From NCBI GenBank assembly GCA_023131835.1, contig JAGLZA010000031.1:1-32943 (forward strand): a DNA stretch of 32,943 nt, given 5' to 3'. The notes beneath the pieces were generated by a model that saw only the letters and a list, made by a program, of their open reading frames with translations, was not told the origin of the DNA and searched no databases. Made by a program: the position numbers and the translations under genes. The stretch comes from Caldifarciminota bacterium. GTDB lineage: Bacteria; Hydrothermota; UBA3072. Numbering within the stretch: position 1 is the first letter of the stretch; the number at the start of each line of letters is the position of its first letter. This document shows, in pieces, positions 5,574 to 32,943 of this stretch.

Positions 5574-7397
5574 TTATCTTACTACAACAAATTTTTCGGT
5601 TTGACTCTCCTTTCCACAACTCACATTGATAAAGTATATGCCTGCCGGGGAATTCCTCATGTCCAGAGATAGATGATAATATCCGGGTTCCTGATTTTTG
5701 CGGACTACCCTCTTCATTATTCTGCCAGCGACATCGTAGACCTTGAATGTTACATCAGTCTTTTTGGGTAGGGCATAGAAAACATCCAGAGAGTTTCTTG
5801 TCGGATTTGGAGAGAGTGCTGATATATTGAAAAATAAAGGAATATCCGCTTCTTCTATGCCTGTTCCTTCGCAGTATGCATTCATTGATAGAGTGTCATC
5901 CAGGGAATATTCATCCTCTGCTAAACCAGTATAACTGACAAATCTATATGTACCATACTCACTGCATTGCCAATCGCTGAATTGGACAGTGTCTGTTGAA
6001 TCAGGCATCAAGTTCAACACCTCAGAACTATCACTATAGATAACATAATCAAGGGAATCATAGATTATGAAATAGGTATAAAAGTCCTCGGCAGCATTAC
6101 CAAGGTTTGCACAAATTGCCTCAGGGGTATAAGTGGAGTCTTTTTTTAAGGAATCAGGCGGTGATGTTATAGCAAGGAGTGATCCGTTTTTGGAAAAAGT
6201 ATACCGGGTATATATATCGCTGTGGCTATCTTTTTCATAGACAACCCATAGATGTCCGGTAGAATCAAAAGCAGCTTCTGGCCAATAGTTATTTCTGGTA
6301 TCATCTGTTATCTTTTCTTCAGGAGACCATGCAGACCCATTCCATGCAGACATGTAAAGTTGATATTGTGCATTTTCGTCCTGCCCGCACCATACAACAA
6401 CCGGATTCTGAGTAGATGGCTCAAATGTAATCGATGGGAATTTATCATTGAGTGTATCGGGTGTATTCACAATTTCCGGTGTTGACCATGAACCGCCAGT
6501 ATACCTTGAATAATATATCTCTCCCCATTTACCAATCCAGTACCCACCACCGTCAATTTTCTTGAGGTATTTATACCAGACAAGCCACGGAGTGCCATCA
6601 GGTGCAATCTTGACCTGAGGTCGATATTCAATACAGGTATCCTGTGTAATCAATGATTCGGGTGAGAAGCCAGAACCTGTCCATCTGCTAAAGAATATAT
6701 CGGTTGTAGTATCAGAATTTGCATCCTCCACATTATTATACCATACCACCAATGGATTATCTCCATCTAATACGATAGAGGAATGACCACTTGATAAATC
6801 CCCGGTGTTTACATATCCGGTAGTCCAGATACCTGTCCAGCGCCACCAACCTATTCTTGAGCCTTTGTCTGCAACAATCCATGTTTCTCCACTTGTAGAA
6901 TCAACTACTATGCTTGGACTCATTCTTATTCCATCTGAATCGACCGTATCCGATGTCCATCCCGTACCATCAAGAGAAGTTCTTATTAATCCAGTTAATG
7001 CACGGGGATTATCCTTTACAACACAATCATATCCAATCCTTTCTTCATCTTCTATAAGTAATTTACGTCCATCCTTTTTATCATAGCACAGACTGGGCCA
7101 GGCTACAGAAGGATAACCGTGTTGATTGAGGCAAGCGCCAAAGGCAGAACCACAAGAATTGTCTATTTGGGCTAAAAGACTCTCTGGTGAGAAGGCGTCA
7201 CCCAACCACCTTGCATGGTAAAAATTGATAAAAGTTCCGACACCGTACCAGAAAACCCAGGTTGTTCCATCCTTATCAACCACTATCTCCGGTACCCTAT
7301 CCGAATATCCATCAGGGGCTGTAACCCTGATTTCCGGTGACCAACCAGCATAGATAGTTAAAGAGAATATCAATAAAACAAAGATAAGTTTTCTCAT
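5574..7397 (-). CDS. Secreted beta-propeller protein with type IX-like C-terminal sorting domain (paralogue 1)
   Basis: A 607-residue secreted protein. Residues 1-17 are a signal peptide (MRKLIFVLLIFSLTIYAG). Residues about 20-400 contain repeated blades of the form PEIVVDKDGTTWVFW, PQVKIAPDGTPWLVW, PSITFEPSTQNPVVVW and PEAAFDSTGHLWVVY, which suggests a BNR/sialidase-like propeller without visible sialidase catalytic residues. Residues about 405-515 form a CARDB-like beta-sandwich (SPPDSLKKDSTYTPEAICANLG). The last ~80 residues (PNPTRNSLDVFYALP, YDVAGRIMK, SPAGIYFI, closing KFVVVR) are a Por-secretion/FlgD-like sorting tail. AAAGGAG precedes the ATG, and only 11 bp separate it from the upstream paralogue. 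Function unknown; probably surface-bound or released. Confidence 0.85.
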   Translation of the reverse strand: MRKLIFVLLIFSLTIYAGWSPEIRVTAPDGYSDRVPEIVVDKDGTTWVFWYGVGTFINFYHARWLGDAFSPESLLAQIDNSCGSAFGACLNQHGYPSVAWPSLCYDKKDGRKLLIEDEERIGYDCVVKDNPRALTGLIRTSLDGTGWTSDTVDSDGIRMSPSIVVDSTSGETWIVADKGSRIGWWRWTGIWTTGYVNTGDLSSGHSSIVLDGDNPLVVWYNNVEDANSDTTTDIFFSRWTGSGFSPESLITQDTCIEYRPQVKIAPDGTPWLVWYKYLKKIDGGGYWIGKWGEIYYSRYTGGSWSTPEIVNTPDTLNDKFPSITFEPSTQNPVVVWCGQDENAQYQLYMSAWNGSAWSPEEKITDDTRNNYWPEAAFDSTGHLWVVYEKDSHSDIYTRYTFSKNGSLLAITSPPDSLKKDSTYTPEAICANLGNAAEDFYTYFIIYDSLDYVIYSDSSEVLNLMPDSTDTVQFSDWQCSEYGTYRFVSYTGLAEDEYSLDDTLSMNAYCEGTGIEEADIPLFFNISALSPNPTRNSLDVFYALPKKTDVTFKVYDVAGRIMKRVVRKNQEPGYYHLSLDMRNSPAGIYFINVSCGKESQTEKFVVVR

Positions 7398-7408
7398 CTC
7401 TCTCCTTT

Positions 7409-9226
7409 TTATTTAACTACAACAAATTTTACGGTTTGGCTCTCCTTTCCACAGCTGGCATTGATAAAGTATATGCCTGCCGGGGAATCCCGCATGTCCA
7501 GAGATAGATGATAATATCCGGGTTCCTGATTTTTGCGGACTATCCTCTTCATTATTCTGCCAGCGACATCGTAGACCTTGAATGTTACATCAGTCTTTTT
7601 GGGTAGGGCATAGAAAACATCCAGAGAGTTTCTTGTCGGATTTGAAGAGAGTGCTGATATATTGAAAAATAAAGGAATACCCTCTTCTTCTATACCTGTT
7701 CCTTCGCCGTATGCATCCATTGATTGATTATCGTCTTGAGAATATTCATCGCCTACCAATGAGGTATAACTGACAAATGTATATGTACCAGGCCCACTAC
7801 ATTGCCAATCGTTGAATTGAACAGTATCTGTTGAGTCAGGCATCAAACTTAAGACCTCAAAACTATCGCTGTAGATAACATACTCAAGGGAGTCGTAAAT
7901 TATGAAATAGGTATAAAAGTCCTCGGCTGTATCACCAAGGTTTGCACAGATTACCTCAGGGGTATAGGTGGAATCTACCTTTAGCGAACAGGGTGGTGAT
8001 GTTATAGCGAGGAGTGATGCGTTTTTTGTAAGAGAATACAGTGTATATATATCACCGCTGTAATCTTTTTGGTAGACAGCCCAAAGGTGTCCGGTAGAAT
8101 CAAATGCGGCTTTTGGCCAATAACTTTTCCTGGTATCATCTGTTATCTTTTCTTCAAGAGACCATGCAGACCCATTCCATGCAGACATGTAAAGTTGATA
8201 ATTGGCATTTTCGTCCTGCCCACACCATACCACAACCGGATTCTGAGTGGATGGGTCAAATGTAATCGATGGGAATTTATCATTGAGTGTATCGGGTGTA
8301 TTCACAATTTCCGGCGTTGACCATGAACCACTGGTGTACTTTGAATAATAGATCTCTCCCCATTTACCAGCCCAGTATCCATCCCAATATTTCTTGAGGT
8401 ATTTAAACCAGACAAGCCAGGGAGTGCCATCGGGTGCAATCTTGACCTGAGGACGATAGTCAAGGCAGGTATCCTGTGTAATCAGTGATTCGGGTGAGAA
8501 ACCAGAACCTGTCCATCTGCTGAAGAGTATCTCTCCTGTAGTGTCGGAATTTGCATCCACCATATCGCTATCCCATACCACCAATGGATTATTACCCTCT
8601 AATACGATAGAAGAATGGTCACTCCATACGCCTCCGGTGTTTACATATCCGGTAGTCCAGATGCCTGTCCAGCGCCACCAGCCTATTCTAAGACTTTTAA
8701 CGGCAGAAATCCATGTTTCTCCACTTATAGGGTTAACTGCTATGCCTGGATACCAGTTAACATTATTTGAATTAACCGTATCCGATGTTCCTCCCGTACC
8801 ATCAAAAGAAGTTCTCATTAACCCATATAATGAACGGGGATTATCCTTTGCAACGCAATCATATTCGATCCTCTCTTCGTCCTCTATGAGTAATTTACTT
8901 CCTTCCTTTTTATCATAGCACACACTGGGCCAGGCTACAGAAGGATAACCGTGTTGATTGAGACACACACCAAATGAAGAACCACAACTATTGTCTATAG
9001 GACACAGAGCACTCTCTGGCGAGAAGGCATCACCCAACCACTTTGCGTAGTAAAAATCATAAGATCCTCCATCGTGCCAGAAGACCCATGTTGCTCCATC
9101 CTTATCAACCACTATTTCCGGCCAATTCTTCATATATCCATCAGGGGCTGTAACCCTGATTTCCGGCGACCAACCAGCATAGATAGTTAAAGAGAATATC
9201 AATAAAACAAAGATAAGTTTTCTCAT
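7409..9226 (-). CDS. Secreted beta-propeller protein with type IX-like C-terminal sorting domain (paralogue 2)
   Basis: Tandem duplicate of the gene at 5574-7397, with the same domain order: signal peptide, BNR-like propeller, CARDB-like sandwich, sorting tail. The first 31 residues are identical and about 78 of the last 84 match, while the middle diverges more. The reading frame is open to 9283, but the ATG at 9226 is the real start: it begins the shared signal peptide and has AAAGGAG a few bases before it, and the longer frame would run into the upstream gene. Eleven base pairs separate it from that gene, so all three secreted proteins form one transcript. No catalytic residues are recognised. 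Confidence 0.85.
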   Translation of the reverse strand: MRKLIFVLLIFSLTIYAGWSPEIRVTAPDGYMKNWPEIVVDKDGATWVFWHDGGSYDFYYAKWLGDAFSPESALCPIDNSCGSSFGVCLNQHGYPSVAWPSVCYDKKEGSKLLIEDEERIEYDCVAKDNPRSLYGLMRTSFDGTGGTSDTVNSNNVNWYPGIAVNPISGETWISAVKSLRIGWWRWTGIWTTGYVNTGGVWSDHSSIVLEGNNPLVVWDSDMVDANSDTTGEILFSRWTGSGFSPESLITQDTCLDYRPQVKIAPDGTPWLVWFKYLKKYWDGYWAGKWGEIYYSKYTSGSWSTPEIVNTPDTLNDKFPSITFDPSTQNPVVVWCGQDENANYQLYMSAWNGSAWSLEEKITDDTRKSYWPKAAFDSTGHLWAVYQKDYSGDIYTLYSLTKNASLLAITSPPCSLKVDSTYTPEVICANLGDTAEDFYTYFIIYDSLEYVIYSDSFEVLSLMPDSTDTVQFNDWQCSGPGTYTFVSYTSLVGDEYSQDDNQSMDAYGEGTGIEEEGIPLFFNISALSSNPTRNSLDVFYALPKKTDVTFKVYDVAGRIMKRIVRKNQEPGYYHLSLDMRDSPAGIYFINASCGKESQTVKFVVVK

Positions 9227-9237
9227 CTCTACTCCTT

Positions 9238-11175
9238 TTATTTTACTATAACAGATTTTACGGTTTGACTCTGATTCCCACAACTCACATTGATAAAGTA
9301 TATGCCTGCCGGGGAATCCCTCATATCCAGAGACAGATGATGATATCCGGGTTTCTGATCTTTGCGGGCTATCCTCTTCATTATTCTGCCAGTAACATCG
9401 TAGATTGTGGCTGTTACATCAGCCTTCTCCGGTAGGGCATAGAAAACATCCAGAGAGTTTCTTGCCGGATTTGGAGAGGGTGCTGATAGATAGAAGGATA
9501 AAGGAATATCTGCTTCTTCTATGCCTGTTCCTTCGCAGTATGAATACAATATTATGGAATCATTTCCTGCATATTGGTCTCCGTCAGTATAAGCATATAT
9601 CAGTCTTCTATACCAGCCATAAGCGCTACATGTCCAGTTGCTAAAAGCCACTTCTCTTACCCAGATAGGAAGCAGGTTGTATTGTTCGGATGAATCTTTG
9701 TATATAAGAACGTCCAGAGAATCATATATCTCAAAGTAAACCATAAATGTATCTATTGCTCCGCTTCCTATATTCATATATCGAGCCGTTGGGGTATAGT
9801 CCCCGATTTCTAAACTATCTGGCGGGCTTATTACTTTTTGAGCTGCAATGTCCTTCAACACCTCTTCGCCTATATGTATGCAATATATCTGACCACCCCT
9901 TCCAAATTCGTATATATTTATAGCCTTACCAGATGCACATGCCCATTCACCAGCTGTATCTATGTCAACCCATGTGATCGAACCGGGTTCTTCATTATTT
10001 GTTATATGTAGAAATGGTATACTATCTGATGTATTATAGATACAAACAACATCACCAGCAGGTGTAATAGAAGATTTTCCTACACAACCAACAATACCTA
10101 TACTTCCGTCAGCGGACAATCTACAAGATTTAATATCTTTATGATATGGAGAATTGGATTTCCATTTGAGTGTAAATCCTCTTTCATCTTTGAAACAAGC
10201 TGCATAGTTATCCTCATCTATATAACAACTTGAACCCATAAGCACGACCTGCCCGTCATCAGAAATATCAACACCATCTACCCACGAATAGTAACCGCCC
10301 GATGAGGGAACATGATGTGAGTATATCTGAGCATAATCAACACCAAACCACTGATAAATCCTCATATCACCATCATAATCTCCTGTTACCACTCGTTGAC
10401 CATTGGCTGAAATGGCTGGAGGAAACTGCCATCCGTCAAGGGGAAGTCCTTGCCCGAGTTGTCCACCAACATTAAAGATATAGACAGAATCGTAGGTTGA
10501 GATAGCTACTGTGTCTCCATGAGGGGTGCAATCAAAACCCTGGGGATAGCCATCGAATTCATATTCCCAGAGTGATGCATAGGTATTTGCATCATAGACA
10601 CTGATTTTTCCATTTCCGGTTCCACTGTTGTAACTAAGGTAAAGAACCTTACTCCCATCCCTTGCAACCTGTGCTCCTCTTATATCATTAGAGCCAAAGT
10701 TATAAATATTCAATGGAGCACCAGAGTATTTATTCCACTGATAGCCTTTATTGAGCTCTCCTGCAGATACTATGTTACCATCAAAAGAGATCCCCACCTG
10801 CCCTTGAAATTCATCATCTGCATCATATTCCCAGATTGGTGGCATTCCCGGAGATAAGCAAGATTGATAGAGTGAAGCCCTTTCGTAATTCAGTTCCCAG
10901 TTGACAAATATATACCTTCCATCCCCTGATATTGCACAGTGTCTGGCTATTGCGTCAGCATCCTCATCGATCTGAACATATACTGTCTCTGCAACCTGTC
11001 TACTGCATCCGGGGTCTAAAAATTCACTCTCTCCCTTTTCAATCCGTACTATCTTTCCATCTATTGTTTTTCTGTATTGAACTTCTCGTGATACGAGTTC
11101 ACCTGATTTTGATATTCGAACCTCCTCTTTGACCCCAACAAAACTTACAACTAACGCAACGCATATCAAGAACAT
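9238..11175 (-). CDS. Secreted WD40/PQQ-like propeller protein with type IX-like sorting domain
   Basis: A 645-residue protein, first gene of a three-gene secreted cluster. A hydrophobic N-terminus (MFLICVALVVSFVGV) acts as a signal peptide, though it unusually lacks a basic n-region; an in-frame stop just upstream excludes an earlier start, and AGGGGG serves as ribosome site. Residues about 70-430 carry repeated blades (AISGDGRYIFVNW, QVARDGSKVLYLSY, AISANGQRVVTGDYDG, DISDDGQVVLMGS, RLSADGSIGIVG) typical of WD40/PQQ-like propellers. Residues about 440-550 are the CARDB-like sandwich shared with the two downstream genes, and the last ~80 are the same sorting tail (PNPARNSLDVFYALP, closing KSVIVK). 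The propeller differs in family from its neighbours, so the cluster shares a delivery cassette rather than whole-protein ancestry. Function unknown. Confidence 0.8.
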   Translation of the reverse strand: MFLICVALVVSFVGVKEEVRISKSGELVSREVQYRKTIDGKIVRIEKGESEFLDPGCSRQVAETVYVQIDEDADAIARHCAISGDGRYIFVNWELNYERASLYQSCLSPGMPPIWEYDADDEFQGQVGISFDGNIVSAGELNKGYQWNKYSGAPLNIYNFGSNDIRGAQVARDGSKVLYLSYNSGTGNGKISVYDANTYASLWEYEFDGYPQGFDCTPHGDTVAISTYDSVYIFNVGGQLGQGLPLDGWQFPPAISANGQRVVTGDYDGDMRIYQWFGVDYAQIYSHHVPSSGGYYSWVDGVDISDDGQVVLMGSSCYIDEDNYAACFKDERGFTLKWKSNSPYHKDIKSCRLSADGSIGIVGCVGKSSITPAGDVVCIYNTSDSIPFLHITNNEEPGSITWVDIDTAGEWACASGKAINIYEFGRGGQIYCIHIGEEVLKDIAAQKVISPPDSLEIGDYTPTARYMNIGSGAIDTFMVYFEIYDSLDVLIYKDSSEQYNLLPIWVREVAFSNWTCSAYGWYRRLIYAYTDGDQYAGNDSIILYSYCEGTGIEEADIPLSFYLSAPSPNPARNSLDVFYALPEKADVTATIYDVTGRIMKRIARKDQKPGYHHLSLDMRDSPAGIYFINVSCGNQSQTVKSVIVK

Positions 11176-11317
11176 ACTAACCCCCTTTTTCGTTTACAAT
11201 TTCACTTGTCGAGATAATCAAGTTTGTTATCCAGTCCATTTATTTATCAATGGAATAATATAAGGAAAAATGCATTTGTAAAGGGGAAAAATTTACTCCT
11301 CCCACCTCCCTTTTTTT

Positions 11318-11347
11318 AACCGCAGATGGACGCAGATAAACGCAGAA
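11318..11347. repeat. 10-bp-period phrase (GCAGAT type)
   Basis: Three units of a 10-bp repeat: GCAGATGGAC, GCAGATAAAC and GCAGAAC, introduced by AACC after a run of seven T. A near copy with GCAGATAGGC, GCAGATAAAC, GTAGAAC lies at 14561-14591. Confidence 0.75.
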
Positions 11348-11411
11348 CCCAACCACTACCCCTAAAATTTTGTAATTATAGAGATAGCCCACTATCCTCC
11401 CCTCATTTTTT

Positions 11412-11471
11412 AACCGCAGATGACACGGAGGAAAAGTAGTTGAATGGTTGAATGGTTAAATAGGAACGAAC
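11412..11471 (+). repeat. Left half of composite element, copy A
   Basis: AACCGCAGATGACACGGAGG is followed by AAAGTAGTTGAATGG and an 8-bp-period stretch (GTTGAATG, GTTGAATG, GTTAAATA), then GGAACGAACC. The same modules in the same order occur at 23276-23343. Confidence 0.75.
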
Positions 11472-11606
11472 CTAACAAACTTGATGAACCCAGCAAATAG
11501 TCATTGCGAACTCTTCTTCCTGCTCTGCTCCGTGAAGCAATCTCTATCTTCTTGCTCGACCCCGGTGAAGCAACCTCAGAAGGGTTCTGTGCTGGGTTTC
11601 CAACCC

Positions 11607-11646
11607 TACGAACCCCACGAACTCTATGAACTCAATGAACCCTCAT
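11607..11646 (+). repeat. 9-bp-period GAAC repeat
   Basis: Units GAACCCCAC, GAACTCTAT, GAACTCAAT and GAACCC follow each other with an exact 9-bp period. A related run (GAACTCCAC, GAACTCAAT, AAACTCAG) lies at 23415-23440. A hairpin with arms GGGTT and AACCC stands immediately before it at 11594-11606. Confidence 0.7.
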
Positions 11647-11648
11647 TA

Positions 11649-11732
11649 ATTTGCAGATTTTGGAGTAGCAGAGCTTACTCTGCGTTTCCCGGAGCGCGAA
11701 ACTTGTAGTGGCAATTCATGAATTGCCACTAC
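11649..11732 (+). repeat. Bipartite hairpin module, copy A (AGAGC hairpin plus 28-bp palindrome)
   Basis: GGAGTA leads into a hairpin with arms GCAGAGC and ACTCTGC around TT (11668-11683). Then GTTTC and GAAAC bracket a 9-base spacer, and CTTG introduces a perfect 28-bp palindrome at 11705-11732 with half-site GTAGTGGCAATTCA. The leading 36 bases (11649-11684) match 32895-32930 in reverse complement with one difference. Confidence 0.85.
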
Positions 11733-11778
11733 TCCATTATTAATCAATGTCAACAAACAAGGGTTCAAGTGGGGTATT

Positions 11779-11801: not shown

Positions 11802-11836
11802 AAAAAACCGAAGGGCTCGGCGCGCCGTACCCCTAC
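11802..11836 (-). terminator. Hairpin plus T-run at the end of the deiminase gene
   Basis: On the minus strand, a decayed GTAGGGG palindrome with a perfect 10-bp core CGGCGCGCCG (11818-11827) is followed by a small CCGA/TCGG hairpin (11820-11808) and six T (11807-11802). This is the only stem-plus-T-run arrangement I see near a gene end. The gene's TAG stop lies inside the GTAGGGG arm at 11830-11836. Confidence 0.45.
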
Positions 11837-14409
11837 TTCAGATAAACACACTTCAGAACCTTTTTATATTTGTCAGTGTGAATCCTTACGAAGTATAACC
11901 CCTGGGGTAGTCTTTCCGGATTTAAAGTGATTTCTCCTCTGTTGTTAAAGGATGTAGTCGTAGAGTACACCCTTCTTCCTGATACATCGAATAGGTCTAT
12001 CTCTCCTTTACCGCTTGCTTCATATCCGAGAAGGATTGTCCCTATTGCAGGATTGTTTTTAAGGTAGAAGAGAGGACCTTGCGGTTTTTCCGCTATTTCA
12101 ATTCCTGCTTGTATCTCAAAGAAATCAAGGATTTTTTGCACCAGGGTATCCCTTCTTGAAACACCAGTCCCATCTGTCAGGCCACCGAGTTCATAGGAAA
12201 GCCCTGCTGTCTTATATCCAGAGGATGAATTTGCCACTCCCCTTCCTGTGCTGGATGTGTTGAAGATGTCAAATCCCGAACCTGTTGGAGCAATCTCATC
12301 TATCCAGTTATTCTCGCCCGTATAACCGAAAGACATCCCCTCGGTGAATGTGCCGGAAACCCCGCTGACAGGTGTTGACATCGTTCCCCCATCATCCTCC
12401 CCGTTTATCCCGAAATACGGATTGTATATGCTCCTTGATGCATCGTATGCCCAGCAGTCCCCACCCTCCATATAGATTCTTCCACTATCCTCAAGATAAT
12501 TAACAATCGCATTGGCCTCCGAGTTGTTTAGAGCAGTATTGTTTGAATATATTCCAAGGAGTATAAAGAGGCTATTATAATCTATGAACTGTGTGGAATC
12601 AAAGGTTGTTGTATAATTATGGGAAATACCCATTTCATCAAAGAGGGAATCAAGGAATAAACCTGTGAGAGGGGTATCATCAAGGTCAAGGATGAGAGTT
12701 TCTATTTTTCCAATAATAGAGAAACTATAATAACCCGAGACCGGAGAATATGATACATTATGATTCACTGAGGCATCCCTTGCTATTATCCTGTAGAAAA
12801 CCTCATCCCCTATATTAACACTTCCGGTAAAATCTGCAGAATACACATCGGTGTGACTCGATTCCTTTACCATTGGTATTGTATCAGATGGAAAGGCATT
12901 TATGTAAAATTCAAGAAAGACAGAATCTATTTCGAGATTATCTGTAATGGTTGCACTAACCGTAGCTGGCCAACTATTCACAGTTTGATCGGAAAGTGGG
13001 TTATGCACAATATCCGGAGGCATAATATCTTCTATAACAGTGAATGAATAGAGATCATAAGGGGTATTTAAGGGCGTTGTTTTAACAAAGTTAGATGTAT
13101 CCCGTGCTTCTATATAGTAATATATGGTCGTTCCAACTGATTGTGATGGAATATCGCACTTGAAAAGACCCACTGTGTCATTATCCTCAACCATAAAAAC
13201 CTGATCGAAACTGGAAGAACCATCTGTATTCCAGCATAATATTACTGAATCTGAATTTGTTTCTATACTGGAGAATATCATTACATCTGTTGGATAAGGA
13301 TTCCCTGTGTACTCAACATTTCCAAAAGGATGATGGGTGAAGAATATCTCTGATATATGATGAACCAACTTCGATATACAATGGACGGCTCCGCCCGAGC
13401 CTATAATACCTGAACAGTCAAACGGATAAATATTATAGTCAGGCAGTACTGCCTGGTATATGGATTCTGCAACAGCATCGTATGAATGACCATATACTGG
13501 CATGAGTACATTTTTATTCACTATCAATGAATTTGTATAAGTTCTGTGACCGCCGGTCACAGGAGGTGAAGGGATCCTTACTGTATCAAAATACACTCCG
13601 TTTCCGTTCTTCAGGTTTGCTATGGTTGCCGCATGCTGATTCAAAATGTCGTGATTGGGATCACCTTCCGGATACCAGGCAACAAGGAATGTATGGTCAT
13701 CAACCAATTTCCCCCACATATCGATGTGCCCTGTATATTCGCCGTTTATTCTCTGAAATACAAAGAGTGTATCCAGTCCCATATAATCATACACCTCCTG
13801 TTGAACCTCCTGATGAGAAAGAGAAGGATTCTCTTCATATATCAGATTCGAACAGAATCCCACACCCTGTCCATCTACCATAAAATTACCGCCCGTGTGC
13901 ACAAGTGATGTTGTGTATACAGGAATTCCCCAGTCAGAACCAAGCCATATATTAAGGGTATCGTCCTGTGGTCGTGGTCTGTTATATGTCCAGTCCGCTA
14001 TCCCTCTGGTCCCATCCTCATGATAGATCCACCAGGGTCCGTAATCCCTTATCCAGATAGTATTTGTACTCCTTATGACGAATTCAACGCTATCCAGGGG
14101 AACCCCGTTGCTCTGTAGGGTATTTGCTATACTTGTAGAATCACTGGTGGAATTGCATACAAGATATACCTTTGTGAAATTGCTCAGAGTATCAACAAGA
14201 GCAATATATAACTGCTGAAAAGAATTACTCCATCTTAATAGCACTCCCCTTGCGTGGTCATATTCTCCTGGTGCGTAAACAGTTACTATAGGAGGAGCAG
14301 TGGGAGAAGTATATGTCCCTATTTCATCCAATCTTCCCTTTTCTTCTTCTGTAAGATATATTGGTAATTCGCTGGTAGCAGATAAAAGAATAAGTAAAAC
14401 AATATACAT
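11833..14409 (-). CDS. Secreted peptidylarginine/agmatine deiminase-family protein with sorting tail
   Basis: An 858-residue protein of the Porphyromonas-type deiminase (PPAD) family, which converts arginine side chains to citrulline. The frame opens at 14439, but the ATG at 14409 is chosen: AAAAGGAG precedes it, it starts the signal peptide MYIVLLILLSATS, and a promoter -10 box lies at 14436-14431. Catalytic residues (numbered from 14409) are Asp122 in WIRDYGPWW, His228 and Asp230 in GHIDMW, Asn293 in YTNSLIVN, and Cys344 in SGGAVHC. A motif NRPRPQDD at about 143-150 matches the two arginines that PPAD uses to bind a C-terminal carboxylate. Two Ig-like domains (about 380-565), a ThuA/glutamine-amidotransferase-like domain (about 570-760) and a type IX-like tail ending VLKCVYLK follow. 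Exact substrate unknown. Confidence 0.85.
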   Translation of the reverse strand: MYIVLLILLSATSELPIYLTEEEKGRLDEIGTYTSPTAPPIVTVYAPGEYDHARGVLLRWSNSFQQLYIALVDTLSNFTKVYLVCNSTSDSTSIANTLQSNGVPLDSVEFVIRSTNTIWIRDYGPWWIYHEDGTRGIADWTYNRPRPQDDTLNIWLGSDWGIPVYTTSLVHTGGNFMVDGQGVGFCSNLIYEENPSLSHQEVQQEVYDYMGLDTLFVFQRINGEYTGHIDMWGKLVDDHTFLVAWYPEGDPNHDILNQHAATIANLKNGNGVYFDTVRIPSPPVTGGHRTYTNSLIVNKNVLMPVYGHSYDAVAESIYQAVLPDYNIYPFDCSGIIGSGGAVHCISKLVHHISEIFFTHHPFGNVEYTGNPYPTDVMIFSSIETNSDSVILCWNTDGSSSFDQVFMVEDNDTVGLFKCDIPSQSVGTTIYYYIEARDTSNFVKTTPLNTPYDLYSFTVIEDIMPPDIVHNPLSDQTVNSWPATVSATITDNLEIDSVFLEFYINAFPSDTIPMVKESSHTDVYSADFTGSVNIGDEVFYRIIARDASVNHNVSYSPVSGYYSFSIIGKIETLILDLDDTPLTGLFLDSLFDEMGISHNYTTTFDSTQFIDYNSLFILLGIYSNNTALNNSEANAIVNYLEDSGRIYMEGGDCWAYDASRSIYNPYFGINGEDDGGTMSTPVSGVSGTFTEGMSFGYTGENNWIDEIAPTGSGFDIFNTSSTGRGVANSSSGYKTAGLSYELGGLTDGTGVSRRDTLVQKILDFFEIQAGIEIAEKPQGPLFYLKNNPAIGTILLGYEASGKGEIDLFDVSGRRVYSTTTSFNNRGEITLNPERLPQGLYFVRIHTDKYKKVLKCVYLK

Positions 14410-14430
14410 ACTATCTCCTTTTTGAAGAAA

Positions 14431-14459
14431 ATAATACATTGGGAAGGATGATTAGTCAA
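14431..14459 (-). promoter_or_regulatory. Sigma-70-type promoter of the deiminase gene
   Basis: On the minus strand TTGACT (14459-14454) and TATTAT (14436-14431) are separated by 17 bp. The predicted start near 14424 lies just upstream of the ribosome site and supports ATG 14409 over the longer frame. Confidence 0.75.
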
Positions 14460-14491
14460 TGGGTAAAGTATTTCCACCCCACCCTTTTATT

Positions 14492-14591
14492 AACCACAGA
14501 GGCACAAAGGACACAAAGGAGATTATTGTTTTGTTTTCCCCACACCACCGCCCATTTTTTAACTGCAGATAGGCGCAGATAAACGTAGAAC
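14492..14591. repeat. Two short-period phrases side by side
   Basis: At 14492-14521, AACCACAGAGG is followed by CACAAAGGA twice (9-bp period). At 14561-14591 a 10-bp-period phrase has GCAGATAGGC, GCAGATAAAC, GTAGAAC. Each starts with AAC after a pyrimidine/T-rich run. Confidence 0.7.
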
Positions 14592-14765: not shown

Positions 14766-14839
14766 GTAGGGGCGTTCAATTGAACGCCCCTACAAGTTTC
14801 GTGCAAAAGAAAAGGGCGCAGAGCAAGCTCTGCTACTCC
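14766..14839 (-). repeat. Bipartite hairpin module, copy C (inverted)
   Basis: Read on the minus strand: GGAG and TA, a perfect hairpin GCAGAGC-TT-GCTCTGC (14833-14818), about 20 bases, GCACGAAACTT, then a perfect 28-bp palindrome (14793-14766) with half-site GTAGGGGCGTTCAA. The order and spacing match copies A and B on the plus strand. Confidence 0.85.
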
Positions 14840-16974: not shown

Positions 16975-17496
16975 TTACATAGTTTCTGTTTTTAGTATAG
17001 AATTCAACCAGGCCAGGATATTATTGGTTAATGAATTTAATTTATCCATTTTGGAAGCAGAGGTGATAATCTCGATATCATAATTCTCTGTCTTCCATTT
17101 GCCAGTACCGGAGGTTGTTATAAGCATAACCTTACTCAAGTCCTTCGCACGGTCAACGTATTCCTTTACATTGGGCTGTAATCTGGATTTCTCGGTTGTA
17201 TGTATAAACACCAGAGCATCCCACTCATCTTCATTGACCTCGGATAATGCAGAAACATCCACCACTTTTATATAAATGGATTTTTCCTTCAAGTCTTCTG
17301 TGAGGCTTTTCACCAGAGCATTCTTGAAGTCTCTCCCCTGACTGGCGATTAATACCTTTTGTTCCAGTTCGGGACTGCCCACCTCAAACGATTCTGCCTC
17401 TCCCTGAATATTGAGGAGTAGATGAATACCAAAGGTAATGAGAAAAACGACGATAATAGAACCAATTACTATCAATGCTATCTTTAAAGCTTTCAT
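16975..17496 (-). CDS. Membrane-anchored flavodoxin-like protein
   Basis: A 173-residue protein with an N-terminal membrane helix (about 5-28, IALIVIGSIIVVFLITFGIHLLL) and a soluble alpha/beta domain. The order KVLIASQGRDFKNALVKSL, YIKVVDVS, DALVFIHTTEKSRLQ, KVMLITTSGTGKWK resembles a flavodoxin fold, with TTSGTGKW in the position of the third FMN loop. The usual T/S-x-T-G-x-T phosphate loop is replaced by ASQGRD, so flavin binding is uncertain. AGGAGGG precedes the ATG. It lies within the operon that also encodes a 2TM protein, DUF4342 and two methyltransferases. Confidence 0.65.
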   Translation of the reverse strand: MKALKIALIVIGSIIVVFLITFGIHLLLNIQGEAESFEVGSPELEQKVLIASQGRDFKNALVKSLTEDLKEKSIYIKVVDVSALSEVNEDEWDALVFIHTTEKSRLQPNVKEYVDRAKDLSKVMLITTSGTGKWKTENYDIEIITSASKMDKLNSLTNNILAWLNSILKTETM

Positions 17497-22424: not shown

Positions 22425-23195
22425 TCACTCTGGCTGATATACAATTCTATTCCACTTATAACTCTTTCCGTTCTCACATTCTACCCTATCTACCTCTTTT
22501 ATTTTGATAACCGACCCGGGGATTGAGACCTGTCCGCATTCCTTACATGGTTCGAGATCCACCAGGAAGAATCCTGGATTCTGGGGGTCTACTCCTAAAT
22601 TTACCCCTTCGATTATTGCCGTTTTGTAAGGATAATCCGACCTGGTTATCCAGACTCGTATGAGATTACCCTGAGAATCTTCAAAAGTAATCAATCCCTC
22701 ACCAGGTGGTGAAGTGCTAAGAAGGTATTGGTTTAATGCGCTAAAGCCCCACTCTATATCCTTTTCTAAACCTTGCTTACTCAACTTCATCAGTATATAG
22801 TAGAATCCTCCTTCGATGCTGTCAGTTTCTACTATTTCCATTCTATCAACCACAGATTCTTCAATTTCCTTCATTAAAATCTCTTTGTAATCTTTTGGTA
22901 AATTTGATTCCCGTGGGTGATAGATCTTGATATAACATCCCAATGTTTGGATAATGGCTCCTCTGGCTTTTCTACTGGCTACTTTCAGGGATTCCCTGGA
23001 AGTTCCCTTACCATAAATAAAAGACTCATTATCTTCAGGGATCTCTAAATACCACTCGGGCACTGGGTGTTCCTTTTTTAAGGTTACACAACCAGTTAAG
23101 AAAATAAGGAAGACCAGAACAAGAAGAGTTTTCAGCGATGAAGCTTCCCATCCTGCTATTTTATCTAGTCTCTTCTGTTTATCTGTTCTTTCCAT
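22425..23195 (-). CDS. LPP20-like lipoprotein
   Basis: A 256-residue predicted lipoprotein. A long polar n-region (1-20) precedes the hydrophobic TLLVLVFLIFLTGC, which gives Cys36 as the lipidation site. PVPEWYLEIPEDNESFIYGKGTS, then LKVASRKARGAIIQTLG, resemble the LPP20/SLBB-associated fold, in which a W-Y-hydrophobic phrase is followed by a G-x-G-x-S and an Ala-rich helix. The last ~90 residues contain two CxxC-like cysteines (PCKECGQV) and are unrecognised. The ATG is preceded by a usable AGGAA/GAGGA site. A probable promoter lies at 23214-23242. Confidence 0.75.
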   Translation of the reverse strand: MERTDKQKRLDKIAGWEASSLKTLLVLVFLIFLTGCVTLKKEHPVPEWYLEIPEDNESFIYGKGTSRESLKVASRKARGAIIQTLGCYIKIYHPRESNLPKDYKEILMKEIEESVVDRMEIVETDSIEGGFYYILMKLSKQGLEKDIEWGFSALNQYLLSTSPPGEGLITFEDSQGNLIRVWITRSDYPYKTAIIEGVNLGVDPQNPGFFLVDLEPCKECGQVSIPGSVIKIKEVDRVECENGKSYKWNRIVYQPE

Positions 23196-23213: not shown

Positions 23214-23242
23214 ACCTTATCCCAAAATCATTCAAAAGTCAA
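23214..23242 (-). promoter_or_regulatory. Probable promoter of the LPP20-like gene
   Basis: On the minus strand TTGACT (23242-23237) and TAAGGT (23219-23214) are separated by 17 bp. The -10 box is weak. The TTGACTTTTGA start is shared with the promoter at 29625. Confidence 0.45.
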
Positions 23243-23275
23243 GGGTCTTTACTGTCTCCCTCCCCCCCATTTTTT

Positions 23276-23343
23276 AACCACAGAGGGCACGAAGGAAAGT
23301 AGTTAAATGGTTGAATGGTTAAATAGTTAAATAGGAACGAACC
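23276..23343 (+). repeat. Left half of composite element, copy B
   Basis: AACCACAGAGGGCACGAAGG is followed by AAAGTAGTTAAATGG and 8-bp-period units (GTTGAATG, GTTAAATA, GTTAAATA), then GGAACGAACCC. The module order is the same as at 11412-11471. Confidence 0.75.
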
Positions 23344-23369
23344 CTATGAACCCATATCCCATACCACAT

Positions 23370-23395
23370 ATCACTTATCACTTATCACTTATCAC
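23370..23395. repeat. 7-bp tandem repeat
   Basis: The unit ATCACTT is repeated three times from 23370, with a partial fourth (ATCAC). Degenerate relatives (CATACCACTTAT) follow. Confidence 0.75.
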
Positions 23396-23497
23396 ATACC
23401 ACTTATAACCCTATGAACTCCACGAACTCAATAAACTCAGTACCCTAAACCCCAACCCCTAATATATGCCACGGTTCCCTCACAGTTTGAGATAGAT

Positions 23498-23518
23498 GTA
23501 GGTGCGAGGTTTCCTCGC
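23498..23518. repeat. GTAGGTGC hairpin, core GCGAGG/CCTCGC
   Basis: GTAGG precedes a perfect 6-bp stem GCGAGG (23504-23509) and CCTCGC (23513-23518) around TTT. It starts like the GTAGGGGC palindromes but has T at the fifth arm base, and its right arm is lost. Confidence 0.65.
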
Positions 23519-23563
23519 TCAAACGCATAACGCTATCAACGCAATGAACGCAAAAGACACAAT

Positions 23564-23660
23564 GGAGTAGCAGAACTTGTTCTGCGTTTCTCGATCGCAA
23601 AACTTGTAGGGGCAAGATATATCTTGCCCATCTATAGGGGCACGGAGCACCGTGCCCCTA
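23564..23660 (+). repeat. Bipartite hairpin module, copy B, with two palindromes in tandem
   Basis: GGAGTA leads to a perfect hairpin GCAGAAC-TT-GTTCTGC (23570-23585). GTTTC, a short spacer and AAAACTT follow, then GTAGGGGC with the 20-bp palindrome half-site GGGCAAGATA (23610-23629). A second palindrome follows at once (23635-23660), with arms TAGGGGCACGG and CCGTGCCCCTA around AGCA. Confidence 0.85.
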
Positions 23661-23733
23661 CTCCTCAAGGTGGGCGAATGCGTTTTGTCCCTTCAAATAT
23701 CCAATTGCTCTCTCTTTTTTATTTATTTAGCCC

Positions 23734-27621: not shown

Positions 27622-29217
27622 CTATTCTTTATCTAATAGCGGTTCCCAGATGCCAAATCCTTCCACATTAAAGTTTGTCTTTGCGTCGTAGTTTCTAATC
27701 TTTTCGTTAAAATTATAACTCCAATCAAGATACTCGGAATCCCCTCCACCTATAGTTGTTATGAGATAACTCTTTGGTCTATGTCCGATTGCAAGTGCCT
27801 TCCTTCTTGGCGCTGGAGAATCTGCTACTCCGGGGTCTACAGGGACCCATCCGTATCCTGGTAGATATACCTCTATCCAGCGGTGGAAAACCGGGTCAAT
27901 ATATGCACGATCTCCTCTCTCTGAGACTGAACCCACATACCTTGTGGGCACACCAGCTGCCCTCATCAGGGAAATATAGACAAATGCATATTCGGAGCAG
28001 GAACCCTTTCCTCTCTTTAATACCTCTGGAGCAATATCCCAGCCTCCTTTTAATTCATAATCGATCTTATCTGCCACATACTTTAAAACCTTTCTTGCAA
28101 TCCAGTATGGATTCTTTTCTTTGCCAATAGCATTTTGAACAGCCTTCCGGATAAAGGGATCCTTTATTCTGAACTTTTCACTATCCTTAAGATAGGTCTT
28201 TCTTATCTCTTTCGGAATGTCGTTCAGGTTTTTTACTCTCTCCGGAAGGATGAAGTAATTTACAGACGAAAGTTGTGCATCTATTACTTCCTTGACTATT
28301 TTGTTCTGCATTGGTTGTATGTCCTGAAAGTGATAGTATGCTACCTTCTGTCCGTATTGGTCAGCAAGGATTTTATCTGGTTCCGGAATAAATTCCGGCT
28401 CTTTTAATAAATGCTGATTGGGTAAATCGCGGGGGATTGCAATATAAACCTTGACATCACCTATATTCCCAGGGCCTGAGTTTGCTATCTCCCATTGAAG
28501 AATTATCCGTGTTTTCATCGAATCCTCTTTGACGATGAAATCCCTGGTTGGGAATGGAAGTAGAAACAGACTATCTTTCTCGAAGTCCGAAACATATATA
28601 TTATTATCCATTACGAAGATTCCGGAGGGATAGGGACCGGGTGAGGGAAGAATATTGATTACTTCTCCGTTTTCCGGTTCTATCATATATATCTCATCTC
28701 TGTATCGGCTTGTTGTCCATAGATAACCCTCTGAATATGAAAGCCCGTTGATCCTTCCACCAGGACCTTCTAAGGTTTTTATGATAGTTCCATCGTTACT
28801 GGAAATGCAATAAATTTCACCCTTTTTATCCGCCACCCAGATATAATCTCCATCAGGGGCAAGCCCTTTAATAAACGATGCTGGAGAGTATATGGTTCTA
28901 ATGATATTCCCGTCTTCACCAATGAAGCATATTTCATCTTCATTTGAGACAACCAGGGTATCTTTGAATACAGTAACGCTGTATGGAGAATATCCGGGAG
29001 ATGGGATGCTCCTTTCTTTTTCCCCACTTCTCAAGTCGTAAACATAGATACTGTCAGACAGGATATCCACCTGCCATATTTTCCCCTTCCCTAGAGTTAT
29101 ATCCCCTGAGTATGATGATACAGGTATACTCTTTACAGGTTCAAACTTCGCATTGGAATCAAAGGGGAAAATAATAGTTGTTAAGATTGCGATAACAGAT
29201 AACGACAATTTTTTCAT
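27622..29217 (-). CDS. Secreted propeller plus transglutaminase-like protease-fold protein
   Basis: A 531-residue protein. Residues 1-23 are a signal peptide. Residues about 25-225 form a propeller with repeating blades (GKGKIWQVDILSDSIYVYDL, PDGDYIWVADKKGEIYCIS, SEGYLWTTSRYRDEIYMIE). Residues about 226-315 look like a linker beta-domain. Residues 350-470 are a transglutaminase-like domain with the Cys407-His445-Asp461 triad in GSCSEYAFV, FHRWIEVYL and VPVDPG. Such domains act as cysteine peptidases or crosslinkers; the reaction here cannot be assigned. GGAGG precedes the ATG, and a promoter lies at 29250-29277. It is the first gene of a unit that continues with the HAD-kinase fusion. Confidence 0.85.
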   Translation of the reverse strand: MKKLSLSVIAILTTIIFPFDSNAKFEPVKSIPVSSYSGDITLGKGKIWQVDILSDSIYVYDLRSGEKERSIPSPGYSPYSVTVFKDTLVVSNEDEICFIGEDGNIIRTIYSPASFIKGLAPDGDYIWVADKKGEIYCISSNDGTIIKTLEGPGGRINGLSYSEGYLWTTSRYRDEIYMIEPENGEVINILPSPGPYPSGIFVMDNNIYVSDFEKDSLFLLPFPTRDFIVKEDSMKTRIILQWEIANSGPGNIGDVKVYIAIPRDLPNQHLLKEPEFIPEPDKILADQYGQKVAYYHFQDIQPMQNKIVKEVIDAQLSSVNYFILPERVKNLNDIPKEIRKTYLKDSEKFRIKDPFIRKAVQNAIGKEKNPYWIARKVLKYVADKIDYELKGGWDIAPEVLKRGKGSCSEYAFVYISLMRAAGVPTRYVGSVSERGDRAYIDPVFHRWIEVYLPGYGWVPVDPGVADSPAPRRKALAIGHRPKSYLITTIGGGDSEYLDWSYNFNEKIRNYDAKTNFNVEGFGIWEPLLDKE

Positions 29218-29249
29218 TAAAACCTCCAGTTTTTTGAAAGCATAGTTTC

Positions 29250-29277
29250 ATACTACTAATAATGCTCTTTATGTCAA
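29250..29277 (-). promoter_or_regulatory. Promoter of the transglutaminase/HAD-kinase/CapA unit
   Basis: On the minus strand an exact TTGACA (29277-29272) is 16 bp from TAGTAT (29255-29250). Confidence 0.65.
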
Positions 29278-29369
29278 TATACCAGAATACCCGATCCCCC
29301 TATTTTTCACGCAAAGCTCGCAAGGAGCGCTAAGAAGAAGGCTGGTGTGTTGGTCGGTTAAGGAGGATA

Positions 29370-30465: not shown

Positions 30466-30551
30466 CTATTTAACCATTTATCTATTTAACTAATCCCCTT
30501 TGCGGGCTTTGTTAGCTTTTACTCCCTTTGCGGACTTTGCGTCTTGGCGAG
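30466..30551 (-). repeat. Short-period phrases, inverted
   Basis: On the minus strand, CGCCAAGA, CGCAAAGTC, CGCAAAGG and a second weaker run (CCCGCAAAGG) are followed by the 8-bp-type phrase TAGTTAAATAGATAAATGG and TTAAATAGGGGC. The order (A-rich CGCAAAG phrase, then GTTAAATG phrase) matches the composite elements at 11412 and 23276. The rest of the 30335-30571 gap shows nothing else that I can support. Confidence 0.6.
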
Positions 30552-32894: not shown

Positions 32895-32930
32895 CGCAGA
32901 GCAAGCTCTGCTACTCCAAAATCTGCAAAT
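32895..32930 (-). repeat. AGAGC hairpin module at the right window edge
   Basis: On the minus strand this is ATTTGCAGATTTT, GGAGTA and a perfect hairpin GCAGAGC-TT-GCTCTGC. All 36 bases match 11649-11684 but one. No GTAGGGGC palindrome follows within the window on its expected side. The preceding 32850-32890 holds AAACCGAGAGATGAATG, a degenerate phrase. Confidence 0.8.
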
Positions 32931-32943
32931 AAATGGTTGGGTG

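Follow-up and report, generated by a model that had tools for sequence, protein, structure and literature searches.

Shared order of repeats in two intergenic gaps of a Caldifarciminota genome: a probable stack of a short-period repeat block, a GTAG-tagged REP dimer and a phrase spaced from putative promoters

Two gaps upstream of leftward genes in a 32,943-nt stretch of Caldifarciminota bacterium DNA (the window; contig 235 of a 537-contig, 3.89 Mb genome, labelled G000) carry the same succession of short repeats and hairpins, which raises the question of whether a single composite element has been copied and has decayed, as the original prediction proposed, or whether several repeats have accumulated in the same places. 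The named modules are indeed present in copy A (11412-11732) and copy B (23276-23661), in the same order and at the places assigned to them. In A they run from the phrase AACCGCAGA (from 11412) through 8-bp GTTGAATG units (11439-11463), GGAACGAACC (11463-11472), 9-bp GAAC units (11606-11642) and GCGCGAAACTTGTAG (11694-11708) to a palindrome (11705-11732). Local alignment of A and B scored 72, the maximum in 300 dinucleotide shuffles being 30, and a gap-tolerant scheme gave 215, with shuffles (n=200) reaching 99.7. Rfam returned no match above the gathering score in either copy, the single sub-threshold match in the window (17085-17137) lying outside both. An inverted copy of the right half had been placed at 14766-14839 and is there, with a palindrome core (TTCAATTGAA) unlike those of A (AATTCATGAATT) and B (AGATATATCT); of the inverted left half placed at 30466-30551, which is a weak case, only the array of 8-bp units (30466-30492, minus strand) was recovered, along with a different phrase. 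Three features had been overlooked, namely a second inverted hairpin copy (32895-32935), the first phrase of A (11311-11345), which precedes the start given to that copy, and the -35/-10 sequences adjoining the phrases.

Seventeen module types were located in a sample of approximately 0.79 Mb that could be read from the genome of the window, short contigs there being represented by N; most of the contigs sampled had been selected for hits to the finding itself, and the others, mostly short, were taken arbitrarily. The modules include P1 (the AACCrCAGA phrase), T8 (the 8-bp GTTrAATr units), T9 (the 9-bp GAACyC units), GC (the GCCACGGTT phrase), H (the GTAG hairpin) and K (the CGAAACTTGTAG piece). 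Their 590 hits in this sample fell into 174 clusters, and only 12 lay inside predicted genes, none of these 12 being a hairpin. Genes are predictions throughout, and promoters were recognised from sequence only. Several contigs of this genome (C13, C15, C104, C142, C218 and others) end less than 100 nt from a hairpin copy; assembly thus probably breaks at the repeats, whose copy numbers are minimum values. Among the genes of the window, three successive ones within 5574-11175 encode proteins of 607-645 aa and have a 300-nt stretch in common, whose second and third copies match the first at 94% and 88% identity; the two tested (5574-7397 and 9238-11175) encode a C-terminal Por_Secre_tail domain. 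Gene 11833-14439 encodes a protein of 868 aa that combines a peptidyl-arginine deiminase domain of the Porphyromonas type with, again, a Por_Secre_tail. For one flanking gene, most protein relatives in named genomes come from Eisenbacteria, WOR-3 and TA06 assemblies, which suggests that the host probably belongs near these groups.

Elsewhere in the sample, the order and orientation of the modules are kept within the left block and within the hairpin pair, but not between the two halves. Counting one vote per cluster, T8 and GC share a strand in 28 cases and oppose each other in none, the corresponding ratios being 19:3 for T8/T9 and 20:3 for P1/T8; on the same strand, T8 precedes T9 in 19/19 cases and P1 precedes T9 in 9/9, pairs that are not neighbours being still ordered, and H precedes K in 18/18. 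Overall, 964 module pairs lie on the same strand versus 650 expected (maximum of 716 in 1000 random-strand trials) and the majority order holds in 80% of same-strand pairs (shuffle maximum 68%), part of this agreement being built in by modules cut from contiguous stretches of the left block. Across the halves, the hairpin and the left-block core are on the same strand in 8 clusters and on opposite strands in 8, and for the hairpin with any left module the figures are 13 and 12. Common outer ends, as supposed for the whole unit, were not found; the ends of copies pile up instead at the internal boundary 11643|11644, and most copies of either half occur without the other. With the relative strand of its halves random and this boundary inside it, the stretch 11412-11732 is not one composite unit but several repeat layers, the left block being an ordered composite in itself.

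A single element made of the left block and the hairpin pair, copied as a unit and then decayed, would nonetheless account for the common order of A and B and for locus L116:14343-14487 (contig C510 of the same genome), one other copy with the left/REP junction of A, where the left block and the REP may have been copied jointly. It would also account for the position of the REPs, which, unlike their strand, is non-random: in same-strand cases they always lie downstream of the left module (P1 before H in 8/8, T8 before H in 7/7). A left block whose 5' edge is fixed to a gene, with the hairpin farther out, fits this last observation as well. In A and B alike the left block is antisense to the leftward gene and has its 5' end at that gene's putative promoter, an orientation that produces a common order without joint copying with the REP, and the order shared by A and B is largely explained by this gene-imposed orientation. 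In tandem gaps, left modules are likewise antisense to both genes (core 20:6, P1 15:3). Given the 8:8 split between hairpin and left-block strands, the prevalence of solitary halves with ends at their junction, and a hairpin that spreads in relatives together with a transposase of its own and is also present in other families of the phylum, we regard the single copied element as very improbable. The evidence as a whole is probably best explained by three independent families, a REP dimer, the left block and a promoter-anchored phrase, which would have spread separately and become stacked in an intergenic gap that precedes a leftward gene.

The hairpin pair at 11662-11735 is a GTAG-tagged REP dimer. 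In A the right unit, delimited by comparison with other copies, covers 11644..11740 on the plus strand, with an end at ~11732-11740, and consists of a first REP (11662..11684), GGAGTAG plus the hairpin CAGAGCttacTCTGC, and half of a second REP (GCGCGAAACTTG) joined to the palindrome GTAGTGGCAATTCATGAATTGCCACTAC (11694..11735). The dimer partner is GGAGTAGCGAAACTTGTTTCGCG, whose second half is replaced by GTAGTGGCAATTCATGAATTGCCACTAC in A and by other palindromes in B and in the inverted copy. Copy B has its first REP at 23564..23586, followed at 23594..23661 by the second REP half, the palindrome AGATATATCT and a second GTAG-type palindrome, all on the plus strand, and the minus strand carries the inverted right unit (14766..14839) and, at the contig end, an inverted first REP with its left flank (32895..32935). 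Folded as single-stranded DNA, the right units give z scores of -6.6 (11655-11742), -7.0 and -6.1, the last for the inverted unit. The unpaired GTAG tag stands beside a short hairpin (GGAGTAG CAGAGC..GCTCTG), opposed dimers (GGAGTAG / CTACTCC) occur in the C104 copy and in two related genomes (L251/L252), and the pattern GTAGCAGArCnnryTCTGC has, at <=1 mismatch, 74 matches in the 3.89 Mb, versus 0 for the reversed-pattern control, so that copy number is high and, as seen in the sample, extragenic. As in published GTAG REPs, of which 24 families are described, GTAG precedes the hairpin, and the repeats form dimers, are intergenic and reach high copy number, a likeness judged by these features (PMC3733652, PMC2817692). 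Unlike those, the second REP is here fused to a perfect GTAG...CTAC palindrome that is interchangeable, and larger stacks of non-palindromic repeats enclose the dimers. The REP mosaic, alternating orientation and variable spacers also recall BIMEs; these are, however, built of REPs, whereas the left block has no stable hairpin and is made of short tandem periods. At another locus (L133), a GTAG...CTAC palindrome lies within the core of the second REP (GCGAAACTTG...CAAGTTTCGC), resembling the insertion of a REP into another REP's loop.

The exact 19-nt hairpin (GTAGCAGAGCTTGCTCTGC) occurs in 9/147 genomes of the phylum, the richest three holding 41, 36 and 22 copies, and in two related genomes it flanks a transposase gene. 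A gene for a 178-aa protein lies between two exact copies of the hairpin, the first REP of copy A, in L251 (G001) and L252 (G019), and a 70%-identical protein is flanked by close hairpin variants in L266 (G098). The G001 and G019 proteins score 90.9 and 94.7 bits against the NCBIfam model for REP-associated tyrosine transposases (NF047646; cut-off 80), and the former matches the solved TnpArep chain 4er8 (E 5e-10). A RAYT gene flanked by its own REP, with a product that passes NF047646, is the arrangement of published REPtrons (PMC3733652, PMC2817692). This association in the relatives suggests that the REP dimer is a non-autonomous element that would be moved as a single strand by a RAYT of the HUH/Y1 type. 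A search of the window's own genome detected no RAYT of this subfamily (E 1e-10 or better), which leaves the REPs of that genome either orphaned or served by a gene in unassembled or masked sequence. That genome does have five Y1_Tnp genes of ~300-320 aa, two of which (L062:1437-2370 and L063:1446-2385, ~310 aa) are bounded by long terminal inverted repeats ending in AATGTCAAAATGTCAAGCACCGACCC or a close variant. In length, and in the terminal repeats of both flanks examined, these genes resemble TIRYT/TIRtrons (PMC3733652); the flanks of these two of the five are unrelated to the GTAG REPs, and a role for these two as drivers of the hairpin pair is neither evident nor supported.

The left block, a separate repeat, is interspersed and non-palindromic, and its short-period arrays follow a fixed order. 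In A (11434..11643, plus strand) it comprises the 8-bp units, GGAACGAACC, a ATTGCGAA...GCAATCTC segment with a ~32-bp tandem duplication, and the 9-bp GAAC units; the core of B (23297..23440, plus strand) has the 8-bp units, GGAACGAACC, an inserted CACTTAT-type array (23353-23406) and the 9-bp GAAC units, and it continues at 23443..23556 with a CCCTAA phrase, GCCACGGTT, a GTAG hairpin (GAGGTTTCCTC) and AACGC units, a series found again in L117 and L076. There are >15 dispersed copies with sharp ends that keep internal order and strand, and other copies in the genome repeatedly end at 11434 and at 11642-11643. The first 150 nt fold as DNA with a z score of +0.8, forming no stable hairpin. From this copy structure we infer that the block may have spread as a unit and then been trimmed, expanded and exchanged piecewise. 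No empty site was found for it, gene order around glnA not being conserved in relatives, and no target duplication was noticed in the flanks read by eye. The module at 11500-11577 (ATTGCGAAC...GCAATCTC) recurs in C122, C81, C306 and other contigs, its ~32-bp tandem duplication being present or absent by copy, and a similar ATTGCGA...GCAATCTC string is seen in another genome (G014; L089, L115). Long 9-bp GAACyC arrays of roughly 20 copies occur in a genome of the same family (G003; L088, L102, L114), which suggests that these arrays can expand on their own.

Short tandem repeats in intergenic regions are known in cyanobacteria as STRR. The units described here are likewise short, tandem and intergenic (periods of 7 and 8 in the copies; the 9-bp units were read directly), and they share with STRR and with the TAACTGA repeats of Beggiatoaceae (PMC4679880) the few-copy arrays, the patchy distribution among lineages and the location upstream of genes. 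Among the repeated families seen, the units were GTTrAATr, CACTTAT and GAACyCnAy, and none was TAACTGA. In the Guaymas Beggiatoa, TAACTGA arrays are mostly found just a few nucleotides ahead of start codons (MacGregor 2015, PMC4679880), whereas the present repeats combine several unrelated periods of 7-11 bp in a fixed order and have an edge phrase ~30-38 nt from a -35 box.

This edge phrase, AACCrCAGA, appears to belong to the neighbouring putative promoter and not to the left block or the REP. Upstream of gene 9238-11175 a putative promoter (11254..11284, minus strand) has a -35 of TTTACA (11277-11282) and a -10 within 11254-11265, and next to it lies a unit (11297..11345, plus strand) with a C-tract, a T-tract and AACCGCAGATGGACGCAGATAAACGCAG, its 5' end toward the gene start; the phrase that the original prediction took as the first module is a second, tandem copy (11405..11431, plus strand). 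TTTACA is imperfect as a -35, and for this reason the site of the gene that starts at 11175 was left out of the TTGAC-anchored count. Comparable units, all on the plus strand, adjoin the starts of three further leftward genes of the window, at 14439, 23195 and 29217. For gene 11833-14439 the unit (14440..14500) has TCTGTGGTT 32 nt before TTGAC; for gene 22425-23195, that of copy B, it has AACCACAGAGG, a T-tract, a C-tract and GTCAAG, which would be the -35 (23234..23286), with 33 nt from phrase to TTGAC; and for gene 27622-29217 the phrase TTTGCGTG lies 30 nt before TTGAC (29218..29330). Read towards the gene, the order is phrase, A-tract, G-tract, often TAGTGTG, and CTTGAC, and the phrase slot can be occupied by unrelated sequences (TCTGyGGTT, TTTGCGAG, TCTGTGGTG, ACCGTGGCT).

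The same spacing recurs across the genome. TTGAC is found within 110 nt in 52/78 gene-upstream regions holding a phrase, with a peak 30-38 nt after it, and over all gaps the 28-38 nt interval contains TTGAC 32 times and the reverse box 3 times. Genome-wide, CTGyGGTTAA occurs 60 times at the anchored spacing and once when an equally wide offset spacing is used, and for TTTGCGAGAA the counts are 40 and 0. All 38 anchored boxes of the sample read into a gene start, and a -10-like box accompanies 31 of them, versus 32 of 190 random positions. The phrases thus lie ~30-38 nt upstream of a predicted -35 at roughly a hundred sites genome-wide, and the phrase unit, whose position is directly observed, would end roughly 10-15 bp upstream of the -35 of predicted sigma-70-type promoters. 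Among the G-tract matches listed, those beyond this genome are only in G001 and G005, apart from one doubtful case in G077.

The position of the phrase unit can be read as insertion guided by the edge of the polymerase, as a functional upstream module or as mere tolerance. Our preferred reading is that the upstream edge of the RNA polymerase footprint is where phrase units insert, or the only place where they are tolerated, and that later repeats may accumulate outward from them. It is tempting to speculate on a repeat family that inserts via promoter-bound RNA polymerase, ~10-15 bp upstream of the -35 and in fixed orientation, at ~100 promoters, the others piling outward, a proposal that is tentative and, as formulated, rather doubtful. 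The fixed spacing at about 100 promoters could instead be held by selection, with no insertion preference, if the phrases formed a functional upstream promoter module, that is, a site for an activator or for alpha-CTD or a boundary against upstream transcription; a phrase period of 9-11 bp would be roughly helically phased. A-tracts upstream of the -35 resemble UP elements, a further point for such a module. Nevertheless, four or more unrelated phrases occupy the slot, wide gaps (>=150 bp) with -35/-10 sequences include 28 with a recognised phrase and 40 without (several of the 40 having unrecognised variants), and the arrangement is near the chance level outside the window's own genome, G001 and G005, so that we consider a functional module possible but short of probable. 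Alternatively, repeats might enter gaps at any position and persist only where promoters stay intact, which would leave their edges just outside the promoter; the scarcity of module hits within genes (12/590) and edges just past the expected polymerase footprint agree with such a passive refuge. Pure tolerance, however, predicts a lower limit with a long tail, whereas hardly any phrases occur at the offset spacing (1 against 60 anchored, 0 against 40), and, read towards the promoter, the phrase favours one strand. Tolerance alone is of the three the least able to explain the narrow spacing together with the preferred strand, and we judge it unlikely.

No modules were found in 279 kb of named genomes from other candidate phyla, nor was the phrase pattern found in the viral contigs searched. 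Among the papers listed in a literature search by repeat sequences, the only match was to GTAGGGGCGTTC, mostly in Leishmania assay papers. The REP dimer is a known kind of element, and the left block and the phrases resemble known intergenic short repeats; among the papers listed on insertion upstream of promoters none was similar, and for the promoter anchoring we found no match. Our findings resolve what looked like a puzzling composite into identifiable components, a REP/RAYT pair and a repeat unit spaced from putative promoters at about a hundred loci, and place the former in a lineage known from metagenome assemblies. They also advise caution in interpreting ordered repeats in two gaps, which can come from layered insertions with an orientation imposed by the genes. 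Finally, the promoter-spaced unit makes it possible to ask whether the transcription machinery can target bacterial repeats or recruit them.
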